Part shown: positions 6,505-16,226 of the stretch, one piece after another
Numbering within the stretch: the first letter of the stretch is position 1
Layout: the number at the start of each line of letters is the position of its first letter
Program-made: the position numbers and the translations under genes
DNA from: Marivita lacus
GTDB taxonomy: Bacteria; Pseudomonadota; Alphaproteobacteria; Rhodobacterales; Rhodobacteraceae
Direction of reading: 5' to 3'
Assembly: GCF_014637725.1 (NCBI RefSeq)
Contig: NZ_BMFC01000002.1
Coordinates: forward strand, 372,907-436,906
Length of the DNA stretch: 64,000 nucleotides
Notes under the pieces: generated by a model
Seen by the model: only the letters and a program-made list of their open reading frames with translations
Told to the model about the DNA's origin: nothing
Database searches by the model: none

Positions 6505-6647
6505 GGGCTGACAACAGGGACGAGACTACCGGACAAGGCTTTTGAGGCGCTTTACCTGCACGCCATGCGCGCGGGACCGGAAAACTCGTGCCTGTCGCGG
6601 CCTCGGTAGGGCCATGGGGTACACACAGAAAAAAAGAGACCGGTGCG

Positions 6648-9600
6648 ATGAAAATCGAAAGAAAATTTACCAAATCTGGCCAGGGTGCATATGCAGGGGT
6701 CGAATTCGTGTCGACCACGTCCGAAATTCGGAATCCTGACGGGTCCGTGGTTTTCAAGCTCGACGATGTCGAAGTTCCGTCCAGCTGGAGCCAGGTGGCA
6801 AGCGACGTCATTGCACAGAAATATTTCCGCAAGGCGGGCGTTCCGGTCTCTGTGAAGAAGGTCAAGGAAAAGGGCGTGCCCAGCTTCCTGTGGCGTTCGG
6901 TTCCCGAAAGCGCGGACACGCCGCGCACCGGCGAAATGTCCTCCAAGCAGGTGTTCGACCGTCTGGCCGGCGCCTGGGCCTATTGGGGCTGGAAGGGTGG
7001 CTACTTCACCACCGAAGAAGACGCGCAGGCCTATTTCGACGAGATGCGCTTCATGCTGGCCACGCAGAAGGCCGCACCGAACAGCCCGCAGTGGTTCAAC
7101 ACCGGCCTGCACTGGGCTTATGGAATCGACGGCCCGAGCCAGGGTCACTACTACGTCGACTACAAGTCGGGCGAGTTGACCAAATCCACCTCGGCCTATG
7201 AGCACCCGCAGCCCCATGCGTGCTTCATCCAGTCGGTGGCAGATGATCTGGTCGGCGAAGGCGGCATCATGGATCTCTGGGTGCGCGAGGCGCGCCTGTT
7301 CAAGTACGGCTCCGGCACCGGCACCAATTTCAGCTCGCTGCGCGCAGCGAATGAGCCGCTGTCGGGTGGTGGCAAGTCTTCGGGCCTGATGGGCTTTCTC
7401 AAGATCGGTGACCGCGCGGCGGGCGCGATCAAGTCGGGCGGCACAACGCGCCGCGCGGCCAAGATGGTGATCTGCGATGCCGACCACCCCGATATCGAGG
7501 AATTCATCAACTGGAAGGTCAAGGAAGAGCAGAAGGTCGCGAGCATCGTCGCTGGATCGAAGATGCACGAGAAGATGCTCAATGCGATCTTCGCAGCCAT
7601 TGCAAGCTGGGACGGGCTGGAAGAAGACGCCTATGATCCCAAGAAAAACAATGGCTTGAAGGATGCAATTCGCGCAGCCAAGAAGATGATGATCCCCGAG
7701 ACCTATGTCAAACGCGTGTTGGATTACGCGCGCCAGGGATACACCAGCATCGAATTCCCGACCTATGACACCGATTGGGACAGCGAAGCCTACGCGTCGG
7801 TGTCGGGCCAGAACTCGAACAACTCGATCCGCGTGACGAACGCCTTCCTCAAGGCGGTGCGTGAAGATGCCGATTGGGAGCTGATCCGCCGCACGGACGG
7901 CGCGGTCGCCAAGACGATCAAGGCGCGCGACCTCTGGGAAGACGTGGGCCACGCGGCCTGGGCCTGTGCCGATCCGGGCATCCAGTTCCACGACACCGTC
8001 AACGAATGGCACACCTGCCCGGCGGATGGCGAGATTCGCGGTTCGAACCCGTGCTCGGAATACATGTTCCTTGACGACACGGCCTGTAACCTCGCGTCGA
8101 TGAACCTGCTGACCTTCCTCAAGGATGGCGCGTTCCAGTCGGATGACTACATGCATGCTACCCGCCTCTGGACGCTGACGCTGGAAATCTCGGTGATGAT
8201 GGCGCAGTTCCCGTCCAAGGAAATCGCGCAGCGCTCTTATGACTTCCGCACGCTCGGTCTGGGCTATGCCAATATCGGCGGCCTGCTGATGAACCTCGGC
8301 TTCTCCTATGACAGCGACGAGGGCCGCGCGCTGTGCGGTGCGCTGACCGCGCTGATGACCGGCGTGTCCTACGCCACCTCGGCCGAGATCGCCGGAGAGC
8401 TGGGCCCGTTCCCCGGCTACAAGAAGAACGCCGATCACATGCTGCGCGTCATCCGCAACCACCGCAACGCCGCTTACGGCGCAACCGATGGCTACGAGGC
8501 GCTGTCGGTCAAGCCGGTGCCCCTCGATCACGCAAACTGCCCCGACCGCAAGCTGGTCGATCTGGCACAGGCAAGCTGGGACGAGGCGCTGCGCCTTGGC
8601 CAGAAACACGGCTACCGCAACGCGCAGGCCACCGTGATCGCCCCCACGGGCACCATCGGTCTGGTCATGGATTGCGACACCACGGGCATCGAGCCGGACT
8701 TCGCTCTGGTGAAGTTCAAGAAACTGGCCGGTGGTGGCTACTTCAAGATCATCAACCAGTCGGTGCCGGCAGCGCTTGAAAAGCTCGGGTATGGTAGCGC
8801 GCAGATCGAAGAGATCGTGTCCTACGCTGTCGGCCACGGCACCATCGGCAACGCGCCCGGCATCAACCACACCTCGCTCGCCGGTCACGGCTTTGGCCCG
8901 GCGCAGCTTCAGAAGGTGGACAAGTCGCTGGCCGCAGCCTTCGACATCCGGTTCGTGTTCAACCAGTGGACGCTGGGCGAAGAGTTCTGCCGCGAAGTGC
9001 TGGGCATCCCGACGGAAAAACTCAACGACCCGACCTTCGACCTGCTGCGCCACCTCGGCTACACCAAGGCCGAAATCGACGCGGCGAACGACCATGTCTG
9101 CGGAACGATGACGCTCGAGGGTGCGCCTTACCTGAAGGTCGAACACTACCCGATCTTCGATTGCGCCAACCCCTGCGGCAAGAAGGGCAAGCGCTTCCTG
9201 TCGGTGCAGTCGCACATCACCATGATGGCGGCGGCGCAATCCTTCATCTCGGGCGCGATCTCCAAGACGATCAACATGCCCAACGATGCCACCATCGAGG
9301 ATTGCCAGAAGGCGTATGAGCTGAGCTGGTCGCTCGGCACCAAGGCCAACGCGCTGTACCGGGACGGCTCCAAGCTGTCGCAGCCGCTCGCGGCCGCGCT
9401 GGTCGAGGATGACGAGGAAGCCGCAGAGATCCTCGAATCCGGATCCATGCCCGAAAAGGCGCAAGTGCTGGCCGAGAAGATCGTCGAGAAGATCATCATC
9501 AAGGAAATCCAGAAGTCGCACCGCGAAAAGATGCCCGAGCGCCGCAAGGGCTATACCCAGAAGGCGGTTGTCGGTGGCCACAAGGTTTACCTGCGCACGG

Positions 9601-10322
9601 GCGAATACCAGGATGGCAGCCTTGGCGAGATCTTCATCGACATGCACAAGGAAGGTGCGGGCTTCCGCGCCATGATGAACAACTTCGCCATCGCGGTGTC
9701 GGTTGGTCTTCAATACGGTGTGCCGCTCGAGGAATTCGTCGATGCCTTCACCTTCACCAAGTTCGAACCGGCGGGCATGGTGCAGGGCAATGACAGCATC
9801 AAGAACGCGACCTCGATCCTCGACTACATCTTCCGCGAACTGGCCGTGTCCTATCTTGACCGGACCGATCTGGCCCATGTGAAGCCCGAAGGCGCAAGCT
9901 TCGACGATCTGGGCCGTGGCGAGGAAGAGGGCGTGTCGAATGTCCGCGAACTGTCGGACACCGCTGCGTCCCGCTCGCTCGAAGTGCTCAAGCAGATCAG
10001 CTCCACGGGTTATCTGCGCAAGCGTCTGCCGCAGGAACTGATCGTGCTTCAGGGCGGTCAGAACGGGGCTGTCGCCTTTGCCGGCGGGATTGACGCCGTG
10101 GCGACACTCAACACTTTTGTGCCGCAAACCGGCGGGTTTGCAACCGCAGTGGCGTCAGCGTCCACCACCAGCACCTCGGCCCCGGCCATGGCAGCGGTGA
10201 CACGGGCCAAGATGCAGGGTTATGAAGGCGAAGCCTGCGGCGATTGCGGCAACTACACGCTGGTGCGCAACGGCACCTGCATGAAGTGCAACACCTGCGG
10301 TGCGACAAGCGGGTGCAGCTGA
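6648..10322 (+). CDS. nrdJ: Vitamin B12-dependent (class II) ribonucleoside-diphosphate reductase
   Basis: The 1224-residue enzyme makes deoxyribonucleotides using adenosylcobalamin as the radical source, so it works with or without oxygen. The ten-stranded barrel is recognised by [15 protein letters not shown] near residue 145 and [20 protein letters not shown] near residue 470, which contains the active-site N-x-C-x-E triad. [20 protein letters not shown] near residue 665 is the phosphate-binding region of this long NrdJ subtype. The C-terminus holds a zinc-ribbon-like module (CGDCGNY, then [14 protein letters not shown]) expected to re-reduce the active site. The ATG at 6648 is preferred to one at 6588 because homologues begin near MKIERKFT. 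It is monocistronic, with a terminator just downstream. Confidence 0.97.
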
Positions 10323-10484: not shown

Positions 10485-13400
10485 TTACAGCTCGATCGTG
10501 ATCTCGCCATCGGGTTCTGCCGCTCGGGACTGGCACAGGATGATCTGGTCCTTGCGCTGCGCGTTCGACAGCACGAAATCGCGGTGCTCCACCGCGCCGC
10601 TGACGATCCGCGCCTTGCAGACACCGCAGATCCCGTCGGAACATTTCACATCCACGGTGACCCCGTTTGCAGTCAGCACATCCGTCGCAGTCTTGTCGGC
10701 GGGAACGGCAAAGCTGCGCCCGTCGGTCAGGTTCAGTGTGAAAGCGTGGTTTTCATACTCCGGCACCTCGGGCACGGCGAAATATTCCAGATGTTTCGCG
10801 TCGTCCGGAAAGCCTTTGCGTTCAGCGGCTTCCATGACGGACTTCATGTAAATATCTGGCCCACAGGTATAGATGTGCTGGCCCTGCTGGTAATCCGGCA
10901 ACAGCGCATCAAGATCGGCGCGGGTGCCTTCGTCGCTGACATGGAGCTGCACCTTGTCGGCCCATGGCATTTTGGCCAGATCGTCCAGATACCCGGCCTC
11001 GGCACGGGTTTTCAGCGAATAGTGCAGCGCAAAGGGCCGCCCCAAGGCATGCAACCTGTGCGCCATGGCGATCATCGGAGTGACCCCGATGCCGCCGCCC
11101 ATCAGCCATGTGAAACTCGCATCCTCGACCAGTGGGAAATGGTTGATGGGTTTGGAAACGAACACCCGCCGCCCTTCGGCAAAGATGCGGTGCAACAGCG
11201 CCGATCCACCACGCCCCGTGTCCTCGCGCAGCACGCCGATCTGGTAGACCGACCGGTCCGCCGGGTTGCCCGACATCGAATATTGCCGCAGGAATTCGGG
11301 GGCCACCACCAGATCAAGATGGCCGCCCGCGCTCCATTCCGGCAGGTCATGCCCATCGACATGGCGGAACTCGTACTTGGTGACCGAGGGCGACATCTTT
11401 TCGACCTTGCTGACCACCACAGGCACAACCGGGCTTTCGGTGGCATCCCTTGGGCGGTGCAGATGGGACGTGTCGCCGCGCGCCAGCCGCGCCTTGTGCT
11501 CTTCCGCGCTGACCATCGCGGCATAGGCGGCGATGCCGGCCTCGCGGTCCATCGGATCAGGATAGGGATAGGGATGCGCGGCCAGCGGTGCGGGATAGAC
11601 GGCCAGCGTCTGGTCCTCTTGGCGCAGGGTCAGACCCTTTTGCAAATCGCGCGCATTGACCGGGTGATGGGTCGGCGCGTAGCTGCCGTTCTCCTGCAAC
11701 TCCAGATCCCACCACCATTTCTTGACCGGGTTCAAACCGCCACGGCCCGCGGCATCGTCCAGCTTGGCCAGAAGCGGTGCCGCCTGCGGCAGGGTCATCG
11801 CAATCTTGCGGAACGGCTTTTCGGCAAACAGCCCTTCGAGGTTCCACGGGCAGGTCTTCATGCAGCGCCCGCACATCGCGCCGCCTTCGGTTGTGATGCG
11901 GTAGGTGGCGCATTTCTGGCTGTCGGATTTCCAGATCTCGTAGCCGTTGAACATCCGCTTCGGCCCGGCGGTGATCGCCCCAGACGGGCATTCGCGGGCG
12001 CATTTGTTGCAGCTTTCGCAGAAGGTTTGCAGACCGAAGTCGATGGGCTTGTCATGAGCCAGCGGCATGTCGGTGGTGACGACACCGGACTTGAGGCGCG
12101 GTCCGAGGAACGGGTTGAGGATCACCTCGCCGATGCGGCTGACCTCGCCGAGACCGGCCAGAAGCAGCAGCGGCGGTTGCAGCACCTCGCCGTCCAGCAC
12201 GGTATGCGCCTTTGCACTATAGCCCAGATTGCGGATCTGCTTTGCCAGCACGCCGCCCAGCAGCGAGAAGCGCAGATAGGCGCGCATGGATTGCGCGACG
12301 CTGATCCAGTCGTCGCCAGATGCGCCGTCCATCGTCTCGTAGCCCTGGTCGATGATGATGCTGATCGCCTGGTCATGCGGCGGGTCGATGGGGTCGCCGC
12401 GCGCGTCGTGGCTGTACCATGTCCAGTCGGGGCAACGGCTGATCCCCAGCGCATCGACCCCCAGCCAATAGGCGGTGGCCTTGATGGCGTCGGCGTTGTT
12501 TTGCAAATTTGCAGGACGGGACCCGTTTTCTGGCGGTCCATCTTGCAATAACACAAAGGCCCCCAACATCCGACGCTGCGCCGAGGATGGTGCCGCCTTG
12601 CGCGCATAGTAGCCGCCTTTCGCGCCGTCCTGCAGTTTCTTGCCCATGTCCCCGAACTGCGCGCGGGCGAACAGGTCGGCGCGTTTGGGCACGCGGGGCA
12701 CGTTGGGTTCGTCGATATAGGTGGTCGGTGTGTCGACCCGCTTGAGCGTTTCGAACGGGTGCGGTCCATCGACATAGCGGCGGCTGTCGAACGGGTTGGG
12801 GTTGAGTCCGGAGCGCGCCGAAACGGTGCCCAGCTTCCACGCCAGTCCTTTGGTCAGCGATTTCGGCTGCGCGTTGGCCAGCGGTGCGTCCTGCGCCAGA
12901 TCGAGCGTCGTGGTCACGACGGCCACGCCGAACCGGTCACCCAGCCAGGGATTGACCAAGCGTCCGTTCTTCGCGACCGCCAGCCCGCCAGCGACCGTGC
13001 AGATGTTGAGATCCACATCGGTGCTGGTGGCAGTGTGCGCCTTGGCGTCCCACCCCAGAAGGCGGATGTAATTGGCGATCACAACGGCGGTTTCCGTGGC
13101 CCGCAGACAGGCGCGGTGGGCTTGCGCGCCGGTGATCCATTCGGTTCCGGTCTCGCCCGGTTTCGGGTCGCGCGGGATCTCGTAGAGGAACACCAGCGCG
13201 GTGTGATGGCCGACGATCGTGCTGGGCGGTGCCTCCATCGATTCTTTCAGATCCGCCATGATCATGTCGATGCCCGAAGCGAGCGTCTTGGTCTGGCGGG
13301 TCTTCAGATCATTGGACAAGCGGTCGATATCGGGGTTCTGCCGCGGCGTGTCCATATGCGCCTCGGGCAGCAGGGCGCCGATTCCGACCATCGTGGCGTC

Positions 13401-13685
13401 GGAGAAATATCCGAACGCTTTCAGATGGTTGGCGCGCTCTGTTACGTCATCGGTAAAGCGTGACCGGGCCTTGTTCACGAACCCGTCGCGGATCGCGTCC
13501 ATCATCGCCTGGTAGTCGGCCATCGCGTTGACGATGGAGGCCGGGTCTTCGGGACGCACGAAGCTCAGACCGGGATGGGGCGGGATCGTCGCGGGGTCCG
13601 GCATCGCGCCGCGCGCCGCGCGCTCCAGCGGGAAAGGGCCCAGATGCACCGGCCGGTTTTTGTCGGAAAAGAACCGAAGTCCCAT
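10485..13685 (-). CDS. Self-sufficient reductive dehalogenase: cobalamin/FeS dehalogenase fused to a flavin-ferredoxin reductase
   Basis: The 1066-residue protein joins two enzymes. Residues 1 to about 745 resemble the cytoplasmic, catabolic reductive dehalogenases (NpRdhA/BhbA type): an N-terminal half related to the cobalamin fold, a cobalamin-binding region, and two [4Fe-4S] motifs, C556-x2-C559-x2-C562-x3-C566-P and C592 with C605-x2-C608-x3-C612-P. Residues about 755-1066 are a phthalate-dioxygenase-reductase-type module: flavin motif RQYS (800-803), NAD(P) motif GGGIGVTP (863-870) and a plant-type [2Fe-2S] site C1015-x4-C1020-x2-C1023 with C1051. There is no twin-arginine signal and no rdhB anchor gene, so it should be cytoplasmic and feed on NADH. 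GGAGG lies five bases before the ATG. The likely substrate, inferred from relatives, is a halogenated phenol or benzoate. Confidence 0.88.
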   Translation of the reverse strand: MGLRFFSDKNRPVHLGPFPLERAARGAMPDPATIPPHPGLSFVRPEDPASIVNAMADYQAMMDAIRDGFVNKARSRFTDDVTERANHLKAFGYFSDATMVGIGALLPEAHMDTPRQNPDIDRLSNDLKTRQTKTLASGIDMIMADLKESMEAPPSTIVGHHTALVFLYEIPRDPKPGETGTEWITGAQAHRACLRATETAVVIANYIRLLGWDAKAHTATSTDVDLNICTVAGGLAVAKNGRLVNPWLGDRFGVAVVTTTLDLAQDAPLANAQPKSLTKGLAWKLGTVSARSGLNPNPFDSRRYVDGPHPFETLKRVDTPTTYIDEPNVPRVPKRADLFARAQFGDMGKKLQDGAKGGYYARKAAPSSAQRRMLGAFVLLQDGPPENGSRPANLQNNADAIKATAYWLGVDALGISRCPDWTWYSHDARGDPIDPPHDQAISIIIDQGYETMDGASGDDWISVAQSMRAYLRFSLLGGVLAKQIRNLGYSAKAHTVLDGEVLQPPLLLLAGLGEVSRIGEVILNPFLGPRLKSGVVTTDMPLAHDKPIDFGLQTFCESCNKCARECPSGAITAGPKRMFNGYEIWKSDSQKCATYRITTEGGAMCGRCMKTCPWNLEGLFAEKPFRKIAMTLPQAAPLLAKLDDAAGRGGLNPVKKWWWDLELQENGSYAPTHHPVNARDLQKGLTLRQEDQTLAVYPAPLAAHPYPYPDPMDREAGIAAYAAMVSAEEHKARLARGDTSHLHRPRDATESPVVPVVVSKVEKMSPSVTKYEFRHVDGHDLPEWSAGGHLDLVVAPEFLRQYSMSGNPADRSVYQIGVLREDTGRGGSALLHRIFAEGRRVFVSKPINHFPLVEDASFTWLMGGGIGVTPMIAMAHRLHALGRPFALHYSLKTRAEAGYLDDLAKMPWADKVQLHVSDEGTRADLDALLPDYQQGQHIYTCGPDIYMKSVMEAAERKGFPDDAKHLEYFAVPEVPEYENHAFTLNLTDGRSFAVPADKTATDVLTANGVTVDVKCSDGICGVCKARIVSGAVEHRDFVLSNAQRKDQIILCQSRAAEPDGEITIEL

Positions 13686-13738: not shown

Positions 13739-14404
13739 TCAGGACTGCAAGGCGTGAAAATCCTTGAGCGTCTTGCCTGCCTCGTCGACAAACAAGCCCG
13801 GAAGCGGTGTGAGGTCGATCACCCGGTCCATGCGGAAAGTGGCGAAGCCTTCGTCGGTTTCGTCCCAGACCACGCAGGTCCAGATCCGACCCCAGTAATC
13901 AAGATGCAGCGGACGCACGGTGTGGACCTTGCCGTCCCGTTCAAGCCGCAGGCGCAGTTTCTGCCGTGCGCGGATCGCCTTGCGGAAGGCGGGCATGTGG
14001 CGAAACCCCTGTGCGGCTTCGGCAAAGGGGTAGGTGGCAAAGCCGAACTTTCCCACGGGGGTGCCCACGTCCTCTGGCAGCACCGCGTCGATCTTGTCGG
14101 CAAGGGCGCGGGCGGCGCTGGCGAGGTCTTCGGTATCGGTGGCACCGACGGCGGCGAGACCGATATGCAGCGCTTCAAGCTCGGTCTGGGTCAGGTTCAG
14201 CGGTGGCAGGGTGATCATCGCCTGCGCGGTGTAGCCCGATCCGCGCGCGCCCTCGACCGGCACACCCGAGGACGCCAGCGTGTCCATGTCGCGGTAGATG
14301 GTGCGCACAGACACGCCCAGATCCTGCGCCATCGCTTCGGCGGTGTGCAGATGACCGTCCTTCAGACGCTGCATCAGGGCGTAAAGCCGGTCGCTGCGTT
14401 TCAT
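13739..14404 (-). CDS. HTH/WYL-domain transcriptional regulator (YafY type)
   Basis: The 221-residue protein has an N-terminal helix-turn-helix (residues about 5-58, with TAEAMAQDLGVSVRTIYRD) and a WYL-type ligand domain in the C-terminal half, where the WYL-equivalent segment is seen as RPLHLDYWGRIW near residue 160-171. Such proteins are repressors or activators that respond to an unknown small ligand or to nucleic acid. The ATG at 14404 has GGAG six bases upstream; an earlier ATG at 14434 gives a poorly conserved lead. It sits 53 bases upstream of the reductive dehalogenase on the same strand, so it is the obvious candidate for controlling it and itself. Confidence 0.85.
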   Translation of the reverse strand: MKRSDRLYALMQRLKDGHLHTAEAMAQDLGVSVRTIYRDMDTLASSGVPVEGARGSGYTAQAMITLPPLNLTQTELEALHIGLAAVGATDTEDLASAARALADKIDAVLPEDVGTPVGKFGFATYPFAEAAQGFRHMPAFRKAIRARQKLRLRLERDGKVHTVRPLHLDYWGRIWTCVVWDETDEGFATFRMDRVIDLTPLPGLFVDEAGKTLKDFHALQS

Positions 14405-14445
14405 GTGATTCTCCGTTGAGTCGCTCTGCTGCACTGCGGTGATAC

Positions 14446-14484
14446 TGACAAAAACCTGTCAACTGACAAGCTCTTGACAAAAAC
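14446..14484. promoter_or_regulatory. Cluster of TGACA repeats between the WYL gene and tatA
   Basis: TGACAAAAAC occurs twice as a direct repeat (14446-14455 and 14475-14484), 29 bases apart. Between them lies TGTCA-ac-TGACA (14457-14468), an inverted pair of the same half-site. The cluster is 42-80 bases upstream of the WYL gene start. It may be an autoregulatory operator or overlapping -35 elements (TTGACA at 14474-14479 on the plus strand); no good -10 was found. Confidence 0.35.
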
Positions 14485-14588: not shown

Positions 14589-14813
14589 ATGGGTATCGGA
14601 AATATCGGTCTGCCGGGCCTTCTGCTCATCGCCGTCGTGGTGCTGGTGCTGTTTGGCCGTGGCAAGATTTCGGCGTTGATGGGCGAAGTTGGCAAGGGCA
14701 TCACCGCCTTCAAGAAGGGCGTCGACGAGGGCAAGAGCGAGCTTGAAGAGCAGAAAGCCGAGAGCGCCAAGGACGTGACGCCCGCGGATCAGAAAGACAA
14801 GGACAAGGTCTAA
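14589..14813 (+). CDS. tatA: Sec-independent protein translocase subunit TatA
   Basis: The 74-residue protein has one N-terminal membrane helix (about residues 5-21, [16 protein letters not shown]), the FGRGKI hinge, an amphipathic helix ([15 protein letters not shown]) and a charged tail, exactly the TatA layout. TatA forms the pore that moves folded twin-arginine proteins across the inner membrane. The ATG at 14589 is preceded by GGAGAG. The gene heads a tatA-tatB-tatC operon with 5-base and 1-base gaps. The TctC protein in this window has a twin-arginine-like signal and is a possible client. Confidence 0.95.
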
Positions 14814-14818
14814 ACGCA

Positions 14819-15271
14819 ATGTTCGATCTTGGCTTTGCCGAGCTGTTGGTGATTGGGATCGTGGCGTTGATCGTCGTCGGTCCCAAGGATCTCCCGGTGC
14901 TCTTTCGAAAGGTTGGCAATTTCATGGGCAAGGCCCGTGGCATGGCGCGCGAGTTTTCGCGGGCGATGAACGATGCCGCCGACGAATCCGGGGTCCGGGA
15001 TATGCAGAAGACGTTCAAGTCGGCCACCAACCCGATGAGCAGCGCGATGGACGGGGTCAAGGATGCGGCCAAGTCGATGACGAATGTTGATCCGGCGAGC
15101 AATACCGGCAAGCTGTCCGCCGAACGCGAGGCGGCAAAGAAAAAGATCGAGGCCAGCGCGGCGCGCGCCGCAGCGGACCGCAAGAAACGCGAGGCGGACG
15201 AGGCGCTGAAAAAGGCCGAAGACATGGAAGCGGCGCTGAAATCGGACGCCGCTCCGGAAAAGGACGCCTGA
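14819..15271 (+). CDS. tatB: Sec-independent protein translocase subunit TatB
   Basis: The 150-residue protein starts [22 protein letters not shown], the TatB form of the N-terminal helix, and continues with the amphipathic helix [20 protein letters not shown]. The long tail is very rich in lysine, alanine and glutamate (coiled, soluble), as in other alphaproteobacterial TatB proteins. TatB joins TatC in the receptor that recognises twin-arginine signals. It is five bases downstream of tatA and one base upstream of tatC. Confidence 0.94.
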
Positions 15272-15272
15272 A

Positions 15273-16226
15273 ATGAGTGCCCGCGACGAAGACATCGAGG
15301 ACAGCAGCGCGCCGTTGATCGAGCATCTGGCCGAATTGCGCACACGGCTGATCCGGTCGGTGCTGGCGCTTCTGGTTGGCATCTGCGTGCTGTTCATCCC
15401 GGTGCAGGGGGATTTTCTCGCAGAACACGTGCTGCGCTTCCTGCTTGTGCCGATCGAGGACACGCTGCGCGCGCTTGGCGATCCGTCGCCCACGCTGCAA
15501 TACACCAGCCCGCAGGAATACCTGTTCGTTCTGTTCCGCATCGGCATGGTGTTCGGCTTTGCGCTGGCCTTCCCGGTGATCGCGCACCAGATGTGGCGCT
15601 TCATTGCGCCGGGGCTGTACCGGTCCGAAAAATCCGCCTTTCTGCCGTTCGTCATCGCGTCGCCGGTGATGTTCATGCTTGGTGCGAGTTTTGCGCATTT
15701 CGTCGTGACACCGCTGGCGATGGCGTTTTTCCTGGGCTTCACCGATGCGCCGTCGCTCTTTGCGAATGCCCTGTCGGGTGCAGTGGATGTTGAGGCGACC
15801 GCCGTGGCACCTGCTGCGAGCCAGGGGCTACAGATCACATTCTTTGGTAAGGTGAACGAAAGCCTGCAAACCTCGCTGGTGTTCATCATGGCCTTTGGCC
15901 TGTGCTTCCAGCTTCCGGTTCTGCTGACGCTGATGGGCAAGGCGGGGCTGGTGTCGGCGGCGGGTCTGGGAGCCGTGCGCAAATACGCGATGGTCGCCAT
16001 CCTGATACTTGCGGCCCTTGTGACGCCGCCCGACGTGGTGACGCAACTGATCCTCTTCACGGTGGTCTACGGGCTGTACGAGATCTCGATCATCCTTGTG
16101 CGCAGCGTGGAAAAGAAGCGCGAAAAGGAACTGCGGGCGCAAGGCCTCTGGTTCGAAGATGATCCTGCCGACGGCATGGACGACGATCCCCTGATGCGTG
16201 AATTCGACGAGGACGCGAAGAAGTGA
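15273..16226 (+). CDS. tatC: Sec-independent protein translocase subunit TatC
   Basis: The 317-residue polytopic protein has six predicted helices. The N-terminal cytoplasmic segment SAPLIEHLAELRTRLIRS contains the conserved E and R residues that read the twin-arginine signal. The periplasmic and later segments (FRIGMVFGFALAFPVIAHQMWRFIAPGLY at about residues 90-118, and the closing VTPPDVVTQ region) are typical. It is somewhat longer than E. coli TatC (258) because of an insertion of about 25 residues after residue 165 and a charged tail. The stop codon overlaps the GTG of the next gene. Confidence 0.96.
   Translation: MSARDEDIEDSSAPLIEHLAELRTRLIRSVLALLVGICVLFIPVQGDFLAEHVLRFLLVPIEDTLRALGDPSPTLQYTSPQEYLFVLFRIGMVFGFALAFPVIAHQMWRFIAPGLYRSEKSAFLPFVIASPVMFMLGASFAHFVVTPLAMAFFLGFTDAPSLFANALSGAVDVEATAVAPAASQGLQITFFGKVNESLQTSLVFIMAFGLCFQLPVLLTLMGKAGLVSAAGLGAVRKYAMVAILILAALVTPPDVVTQLILFTVVYGLYEISIILVRSVEKKREKELRAQGLWFEDDPADGMDDDPLMREFDEDAKK

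Follow-up and report, generated by a model that had tools for sequence, protein, structure and literature searches.

Most catabolic reductive dehalogenases (RdhAs) bear a C-terminal phthalate-dioxygenase-reductase-like (PDOR) module and are termed self-sufficient (PMC10463259). JtRdhA, from Jhaorihella thermophila, removes bromine and iodine from ortho-halophenols in air, using NADPH in 1:1 coupling, and the chlorinated compounds tested were inhibitory rather than substrates (PMC10463259). A 64,000-nucleotide stretch of DNA from Marivita lacus (Rhodobacteraceae; contig NZ_BMFC01000002.1, positions 372,907 to 436,906; hereafter the window) carries on its minus strand, at 10485..13685, a gene whose product is very probably a cytoplasmic, self-sufficient catabolic reductive dehalogenase that depends on cobalamin and uses NADPH to act on ortho-bromo and ortho-iodo phenols. 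Judged by its sequence, the protein is a member of the described class of self-sufficient catabolic reductive dehalogenases, which includes BhbA and JtRdhA.

Domains, active site and electron donor

The gene is a single open frame of 1066 amino acids plus a stop codon and is probably a real gene for a functional enzyme; near-full-length copies at 53–90% identity occur in many genomes, so it is not a chance frame. The NCBIfam model for reductive dehalogenases, TIGR02486, matches at 199 bits (cut-off, 160), and the best match among solved structures is NpRdhA of Nitratireductor pacificus (PDB 4ras; E 1e-155), with 227 of 506 aligned residues identical over the five alignment rows used. BhbA from Comamonas sp. 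7D-2 aligns end to end at 48% identity (526/1085). The features of the gene and its predicted product are:

10485..13685, minus strand: predicted self-sufficient reductive dehalogenase gene (open frame, TIGR02486, structure matches, BhbA identity, alignment)
12879..13451, minus strand: N-terminal half, residues 79-269, a second and weaker TIGR02486 match read as a vestigial duplicate
11748..12374, minus strand: predicted catalytic core of the dehalogenase, residues 438-646 (covers TIGR02486 positions 88-311 and aligns with 4ras)
12276..12278, minus strand: Y470, equivalent to the proton donor Y426 of NpRdhA (4ras alignment; invariant in 146 sequences)
12090..12092, minus strand: K532, equivalent to NpRdhA K488 (4ras alignment; invariant in 146 sequences)
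11898..11900, minus strand: R596, equivalent to NpRdhA R552 (4ras alignment; invariant in 146 sequences)
11850..12020, minus strand: two [4Fe-4S] motifs, C556/559/562/566 and C592/605/608/612 (Pfam Fer4_16 at 556-615, over cut-off)
10518..11420, minus strand: phthalate-dioxygenase-reductase-like module, residues 756-1056, for flavin mononucleotide (FMN), NAD(P)H and [2Fe-2S] (structure matches, alignment)
10521..10721, minus strand: plant-type [2Fe-2S] domain, C1015/C1020/C1023/C1051 (Pfam Fer2 at 989-1055, over cut-off)

The N-terminal match (G000:C2:385785-386357) covers TIGR02486 positions 4-199 with an E-value of 1.4e-9 and 38.8 bits, below the cut-off, and fits a vestigial duplicate of the cobalamin-binding core, a trait that marks catabolic RdhAs (PMC10463259). 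The structure 4ras, which itself has the duplicate, aligns to the window protein at 3-108 and 159-743. The active-site residues F291, S422, M423, Y426, K488 and R552 of NpRdhA correspond to F339, S466, M467, Y470, K532 and R596, identical at all six, and the six active-site residues listed in the JtRdhA paper are likewise all kept (PMC10463259). Across 146 aligned sequences (142 distinct), comprising the window protein and those from 60 genomes of the family, 80 named loci and five plasmid loci, S466, Y470, K532, R596, the 12 cluster cysteines, R800, S803, G864, G865, T869 and P870 are invariant. The invariance of S466, Y470, C605 and C608 is partly built in for the 80 named loci, because these were fetched by the patterns MCGRCMK and SMRAYLRF, which contain those residues.

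Towards the C-terminus, residues 756-1056 match solved reductases. The closest are the reductase portions of two fused cytochromes P450 (6kbh and 6laa), and phthalate dioxygenase reductase (2pia) matches as well. Within this module, R800 and S803 are presumed, from general knowledge of the family, to serve FMN and the GGIGxTP motif at 864-870 to serve NAD(P)H. The dehalogenase is flanked by a WYL-domain regulator on one side and a vitamin B12-dependent ribonucleotide reductase on the other, leaving no rdhB adjoining the gene (the genome was not searched for rdhB). No twin-arginine signal was seen by eye at the N-terminus (no signal predictor was applied), and no NCBIfam model matched the first 60 residues. 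Much of what an earlier note on this DNA had read from the letters stands: the single 1066-codon frame at 10485-13685, to which the minus strand is now added, the exact positions of the eight [4Fe-4S] cysteines, the flavin, NAD and plant-type [2Fe-2S] module following the dehalogenase (evident in the 2pia and P450 matches and Fer2), and the missing rdhB at the locus. The comparison with NpRdhA and BhbA that it had proposed gave the identities above.

That note had also taken the protein for an NADH-driven cytoplasmic enzyme; a cytoplasmic, self-sufficient dehalogenase of the NpRdhA and BhbA type is retained and the donor revised. At residues 893-894 the window protein has T-R, where 6kbh and 6laa have S-R and 2pia has D-P; position 893 is S or T in 114 of the 146 aligned sequences and position 894 is R in 126. 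Phthalate dioxygenase reductase 2pia uses NADH, and 6kbh and 6laa are, we take it, CYP116B enzymes. CYP116B enzymes prefer NADPH (PMC12126322), and JtRdhA was assayed with NADPH, with no preference between NADPH and NADH reported for it in the main text of PMC10463259, from which the word NADH is absent. On this analysis NADPH is the likelier donor, because JtRdhA was assayed with it, the closest reductases belong to fused P450s and the T-R pair aligns with their S-R.

Distribution, gene neighbourhoods and cobalamin supply

A near-full-length dehalogenase is present in at least 145 of the 394 sampled genomes of the family, that of the window included. This lower bound is a hand count, one per genome, of matches covering at least 1000 of the 1066 residues among 150 matches listed, five of which were shorter. 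With the threshold set at E 1e-30, 223 of the 394 genomes have a match, many of them with weaker best matches that are presumably other reductases or fragments. All named relatives that share 81-90% identity with the window protein are Marivita (L094-L098); other named loci with the dehalogenase are found in Oricola, Nitratireductor, Ahrensia and further taxa labelled Rhizobiaceae or Hyphomicrobiales. Plasmid copies occur in eight of 72,556 plasmid records (E 1e-60).

The neighbourhoods were compared at 61 loci, the window and 60 genomes picked from the family match list, with neighbours defined as the longest non-overlapping open reading frames (ORFs), so that some may be shadow ORFs; antisense picks in the window and in L034 were replaced by the WYL gene. 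When the dehalogenase gene and its overlapping ORFs are set aside, no cluster in the fetched flanks was common to more than seven of the 61 loci, and a conserved operon was accordingly rejected as a clue to the substrate. Pfam families among the immediate upstream neighbours reached four of 61 at most (MarR), with FAD_binding_3, a family that includes aromatic-ring hydroxylases, at two and FAA hydrolase at one (best 25 of 53 families). When 10 chosen neighbours were scanned singly, three had no match and none of the other seven belonged to an aromatic-catabolism family. The regulators beside the dehalogenase also vary, with WYL in the window and a congener and MarR next to the plasmid copies of Aminobacter and Jannaschia.

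Two plasmid relatives lie in or near protocatechuate-pathway clusters, namely BhbA and the copy of Nitratireductor sp. OM-1 with pobA. On the OM-1 plasmid (L175:7001-14783), an RdhA-PDOR protein 48% identical to the window protein is encoded together with PobA and extradiol/protocatechuate dioxygenases, and this cluster is a candidate for acting on halogenated hydroxybenzoates. In the window genome, PobA and the protocatechuate 3,4-dioxygenase beta subunit, both over cut-off, occur together on contig C3, a different contig from that of the dehalogenase.

The window genome encodes at least three enzymes of cobalamin-using families: the dehalogenase, a separate epoxyqueuosine reductase (QueG; C1:408192, 435 bits) and the neighbouring ribonucleotide reductase. 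The last of these, a 1244-amino-acid vitamin B12-dependent protein on the plus strand of the window (6588-10322; 2217 bits against 1737), is convergent with the dehalogenase and is a second cobalamin enzyme immediately beside it. Cobalamin itself is probably imported, as suggested by the genome content: searches of the assembly, which is rated 99.98% complete, found neither CobN nor CobB and gave one weak match to CobM (149.7 against a cut-off of 259.65). Two CobN models find nothing fitting genome-wide, the second recovering only a 1278-amino-acid ORF that had been taken for CobN on a two-piece match. The correct identity of this ORF is magnesium chelatase subunit H (2017 bits; cut-off, 1166; its CobN matches are below cut-off), and the view that the genome makes cobalamin was dropped once this was recognised. 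A candidate BtuB-like receptor is present on contig C9 (TIGR01779, 219.6 bits; cut-off, 599.7). The magnesium chelatase subunit H (BchH; L203:189-4025, G000:C1) is a bacteriochlorophyll gene, and the organism may therefore be a photoheterotroph.

Proposed mechanism and substrate

In the proposed mechanism, NADPH would pass a hydride to the FMN of the C-terminal module, from which single electrons would travel, as modelled on JtRdhA and NpRdhA, by way of the [2Fe-2S] cluster and then both [4Fe-4S] clusters until they reach base-off cobalamin, the cobalamin probably having been imported. Following the NpRdhA structures, S466, K532 and R596 would hold an ortho-bromo or ortho-iodo phenolate above the cobalt, and Y470 would donate a proton as the carbon-halogen bond is cleaved, after which the halide and the dehalogenated phenol would leave. 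A product such as 4-hydroxybenzoate could enter the PobA/protocatechuate pathway, whose genes lie at another place in the genome. The WYL gene, tat-linked and probably autoregulated, directly precedes the dehalogenase gene in Marivita, and the two may be partly co-transcribed.

The removal of bromine or iodine from phenols is the most likely activity on this analysis. The substrate, which the earlier note had left open, is not wholly so, because known relatives use ortho-halogenated phenols, the genome has a route from 4-hydroxybenzoate to protocatechuate, and two plasmid relatives lie near protocatechuate genes.

Several observations weigh against the assignment as a whole. The 61 loci share no neighbour that would hint at a substrate. 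Cobalamin binding is predicted from the sequence, for which the comparison with NpRdhA covers the mapped active-site residues, and the supply of the cofactor is deduced from a genome with no CobN, no CobB, no CobM over cut-off and a BtuB-like match below its cut-off. Oxygen tolerance cannot be assumed, because the Roseobacter catabolic enzyme Ros_A3X954, which debrominates 2,6-dibromophenol, lost its activity in oxygen (PMC13101508). Finally, six of the 12 mapped pocket or entrance positions of NpRdhA named in PMC7565698 differ in the window protein: F290L, F310Y and A419V, and the stronger changes K307A, P311A and N452V, the 4ras alignment being gapped near NpRdhA 307-311. Details of substrate use may therefore differ from those of NpRdhA.

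These pocket changes are also what would be expected of a drifted member that has kept the fold and turned to another substrate, whether chlorinated, aliphatic or non-halogenated, and the JtRdhA authors note that all knowledge of the substrate scope of the fused class comes from a single detailed example (PMC10463259). Such drift seems unlikely, given that the six residues conserved between NpRdhA and JtRdhA (PMC10463259) are kept in the window protein and that the catalytic set is identical in BhbA and the other aligned sequences.

The WYL regulator and comparison with known systems

The regulator that the earlier note had placed directly upstream of the dehalogenase is indeed there, on the same strand and across a gap of 53 bp, and is itself preceded by a repeat block:

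13739..14434, minus strand: WYL-domain regulator, probable start 14404 (Pfam HTH_11 and WYL; co-directional with the dehalogenase)
14442..14481, minus strand: conserved block of TGTCA repeats ahead of the WYL gene, probably an operator/promoter for autoregulation (almost unchanged across the window and five Marivita loci)

As that note would have it, the same enzyme is driven by NADH and its gene is induced by organohalides sensed by the WYL protein. The near-invariance of the block in Marivita and its single site in the window genome (at up to three mismatches), consistent with a local role, first looked supportive of such a sensor. To this can be added the position of the WYL gene, its linkage to the dehalogenase in all five Marivita loci among the 80 named, and the use of NADH by 2pia, a relative of the reductase module. 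Beyond Marivita, the picture differs. The linkage is seen at no other named locus (5/80) and, in the other set, at two of 61 loci (the window and a congener), while WYL homologues, paralogues included, are widespread (285 of the 394 family genomes at E 1e-20 or better). At 20 loci of WYL homologues from outside the genus, chosen as the 17 best matches and three of the next ten, the fetched stretches contained tatA, tatB and tatC in every case and the dehalogenase in none, and 19 of the 20 carried the TGTCA-repeat motif. In these 20 and in the five Marivita loci, WYL and tatA run divergently, and the starts of their matches are separated by 148-234 bp. The motif occurs in only six of 140 dehalogenase loci, those of the congener and the five Marivita. 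Among the matches listed, the 20 WYL-tatABC genomes divide into 12 with a full-length dehalogenase at another locus and eight without one, of which two show a weak match and six no match.

The WYL gene and its operator-like motif thus belong to a tatABC locus independent of the dehalogenase, since all 20 loci have tatABC and lack the dehalogenase, and it was in Marivita that the dehalogenase came to lie downstream of the WYL gene. A related motif at WYL-tatABC loci without a dehalogenase weakens the case for a dedicated organohalide sensor, and the WYL protein is, from these sequence comparisons, probably no such sensor. Together with the T-R pair at residues 893-894, where the fused P450 reductases have S-R and 2pia has D-P, this makes the combination of NADH and organohalide sensing very unlikely, and induction of the gene by organohalides through WYL is left unsupported. 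The window has the same arrangement, with WYL (13739-14434, minus strand) divergent from tatABC (14589-16226, plus strand) and the multi-copy TGTCA block (14442-14481) between them. Co-transcription of WYL and the dehalogenase across the 53 bp gap is possible; that read-through from the autoregulated WYL promoter could tie debromination to a tat-linked WYL signal, and not to organohalide availability, is a tentative and rather doubtful suggestion.

Identity as a QueG or a respiratory reductive dehalogenase, which share class III of the cobalamin enzymes with the catabolic ones (PMC10463259), is extremely unlikely, the QueG model TIGR00276 giving a weak match of 26.6 bits against a cut-off of 200 beside the separate QueG in the genome, and a respiratory enzyme being at odds with an N-terminus in which no twin-arginine signal was seen by eye and with the lack of an adjoining rdhB.

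A self-sufficient, NADPH-using catabolic dehalogenase is thus preferred, and the gene adds a sequence to a class of bioremediation interest. The count of at least 145 in 394 sampled genomes makes the fused form common in the family, and, because it is common and no neighbour is shared by more than seven of the 61 loci, a widespread, stand-alone route by which marine bacteria remove bromine or iodine from phenols is indicated. Little about the substrate can be read from the adjoining regulator.

Of the known systems, BhbA (WP_015585978, plasmid pBHB) has the same full-length domain order and the same catalytic and cluster residues as the window protein; genes for protocatechuate 4,5-dioxygenase accompany it in its plasmid cluster, whereas the window gene lies between a WYL regulator and a ribonucleotide reductase. 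JtRdhA (WP_104007082) is, by the description in its paper, also a marine RdhA-PDOR fusion with no twin-arginine translocation signal, a duplicated core, two [4Fe-4S] clusters and the same six active-site residues (PMC10463259); its sequence was not found among the named loci, and the likeness is one of description. NpRdhA (4ras, 6zxu) shares the dehalogenase half and catalytic residues, but naturally has no reductase module (PMC10463259) and, in the 4ras alignment, is without some 40 residues near positions 109-158 of the window protein. The reductases 6kbh, 6laa and 2pia share the FMN/NAD(P)H/[2Fe-2S] module, C-terminal in the P450s as in the window protein, but work with a heme P450 or, as a separate protein, a dioxygenase as catalytic partner, where the window protein has a predicted cobalamin dehalogenase. 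The sequence is new, but the enzyme class has already been described, and the Marivita lacus protein is a rather ordinary member of it.

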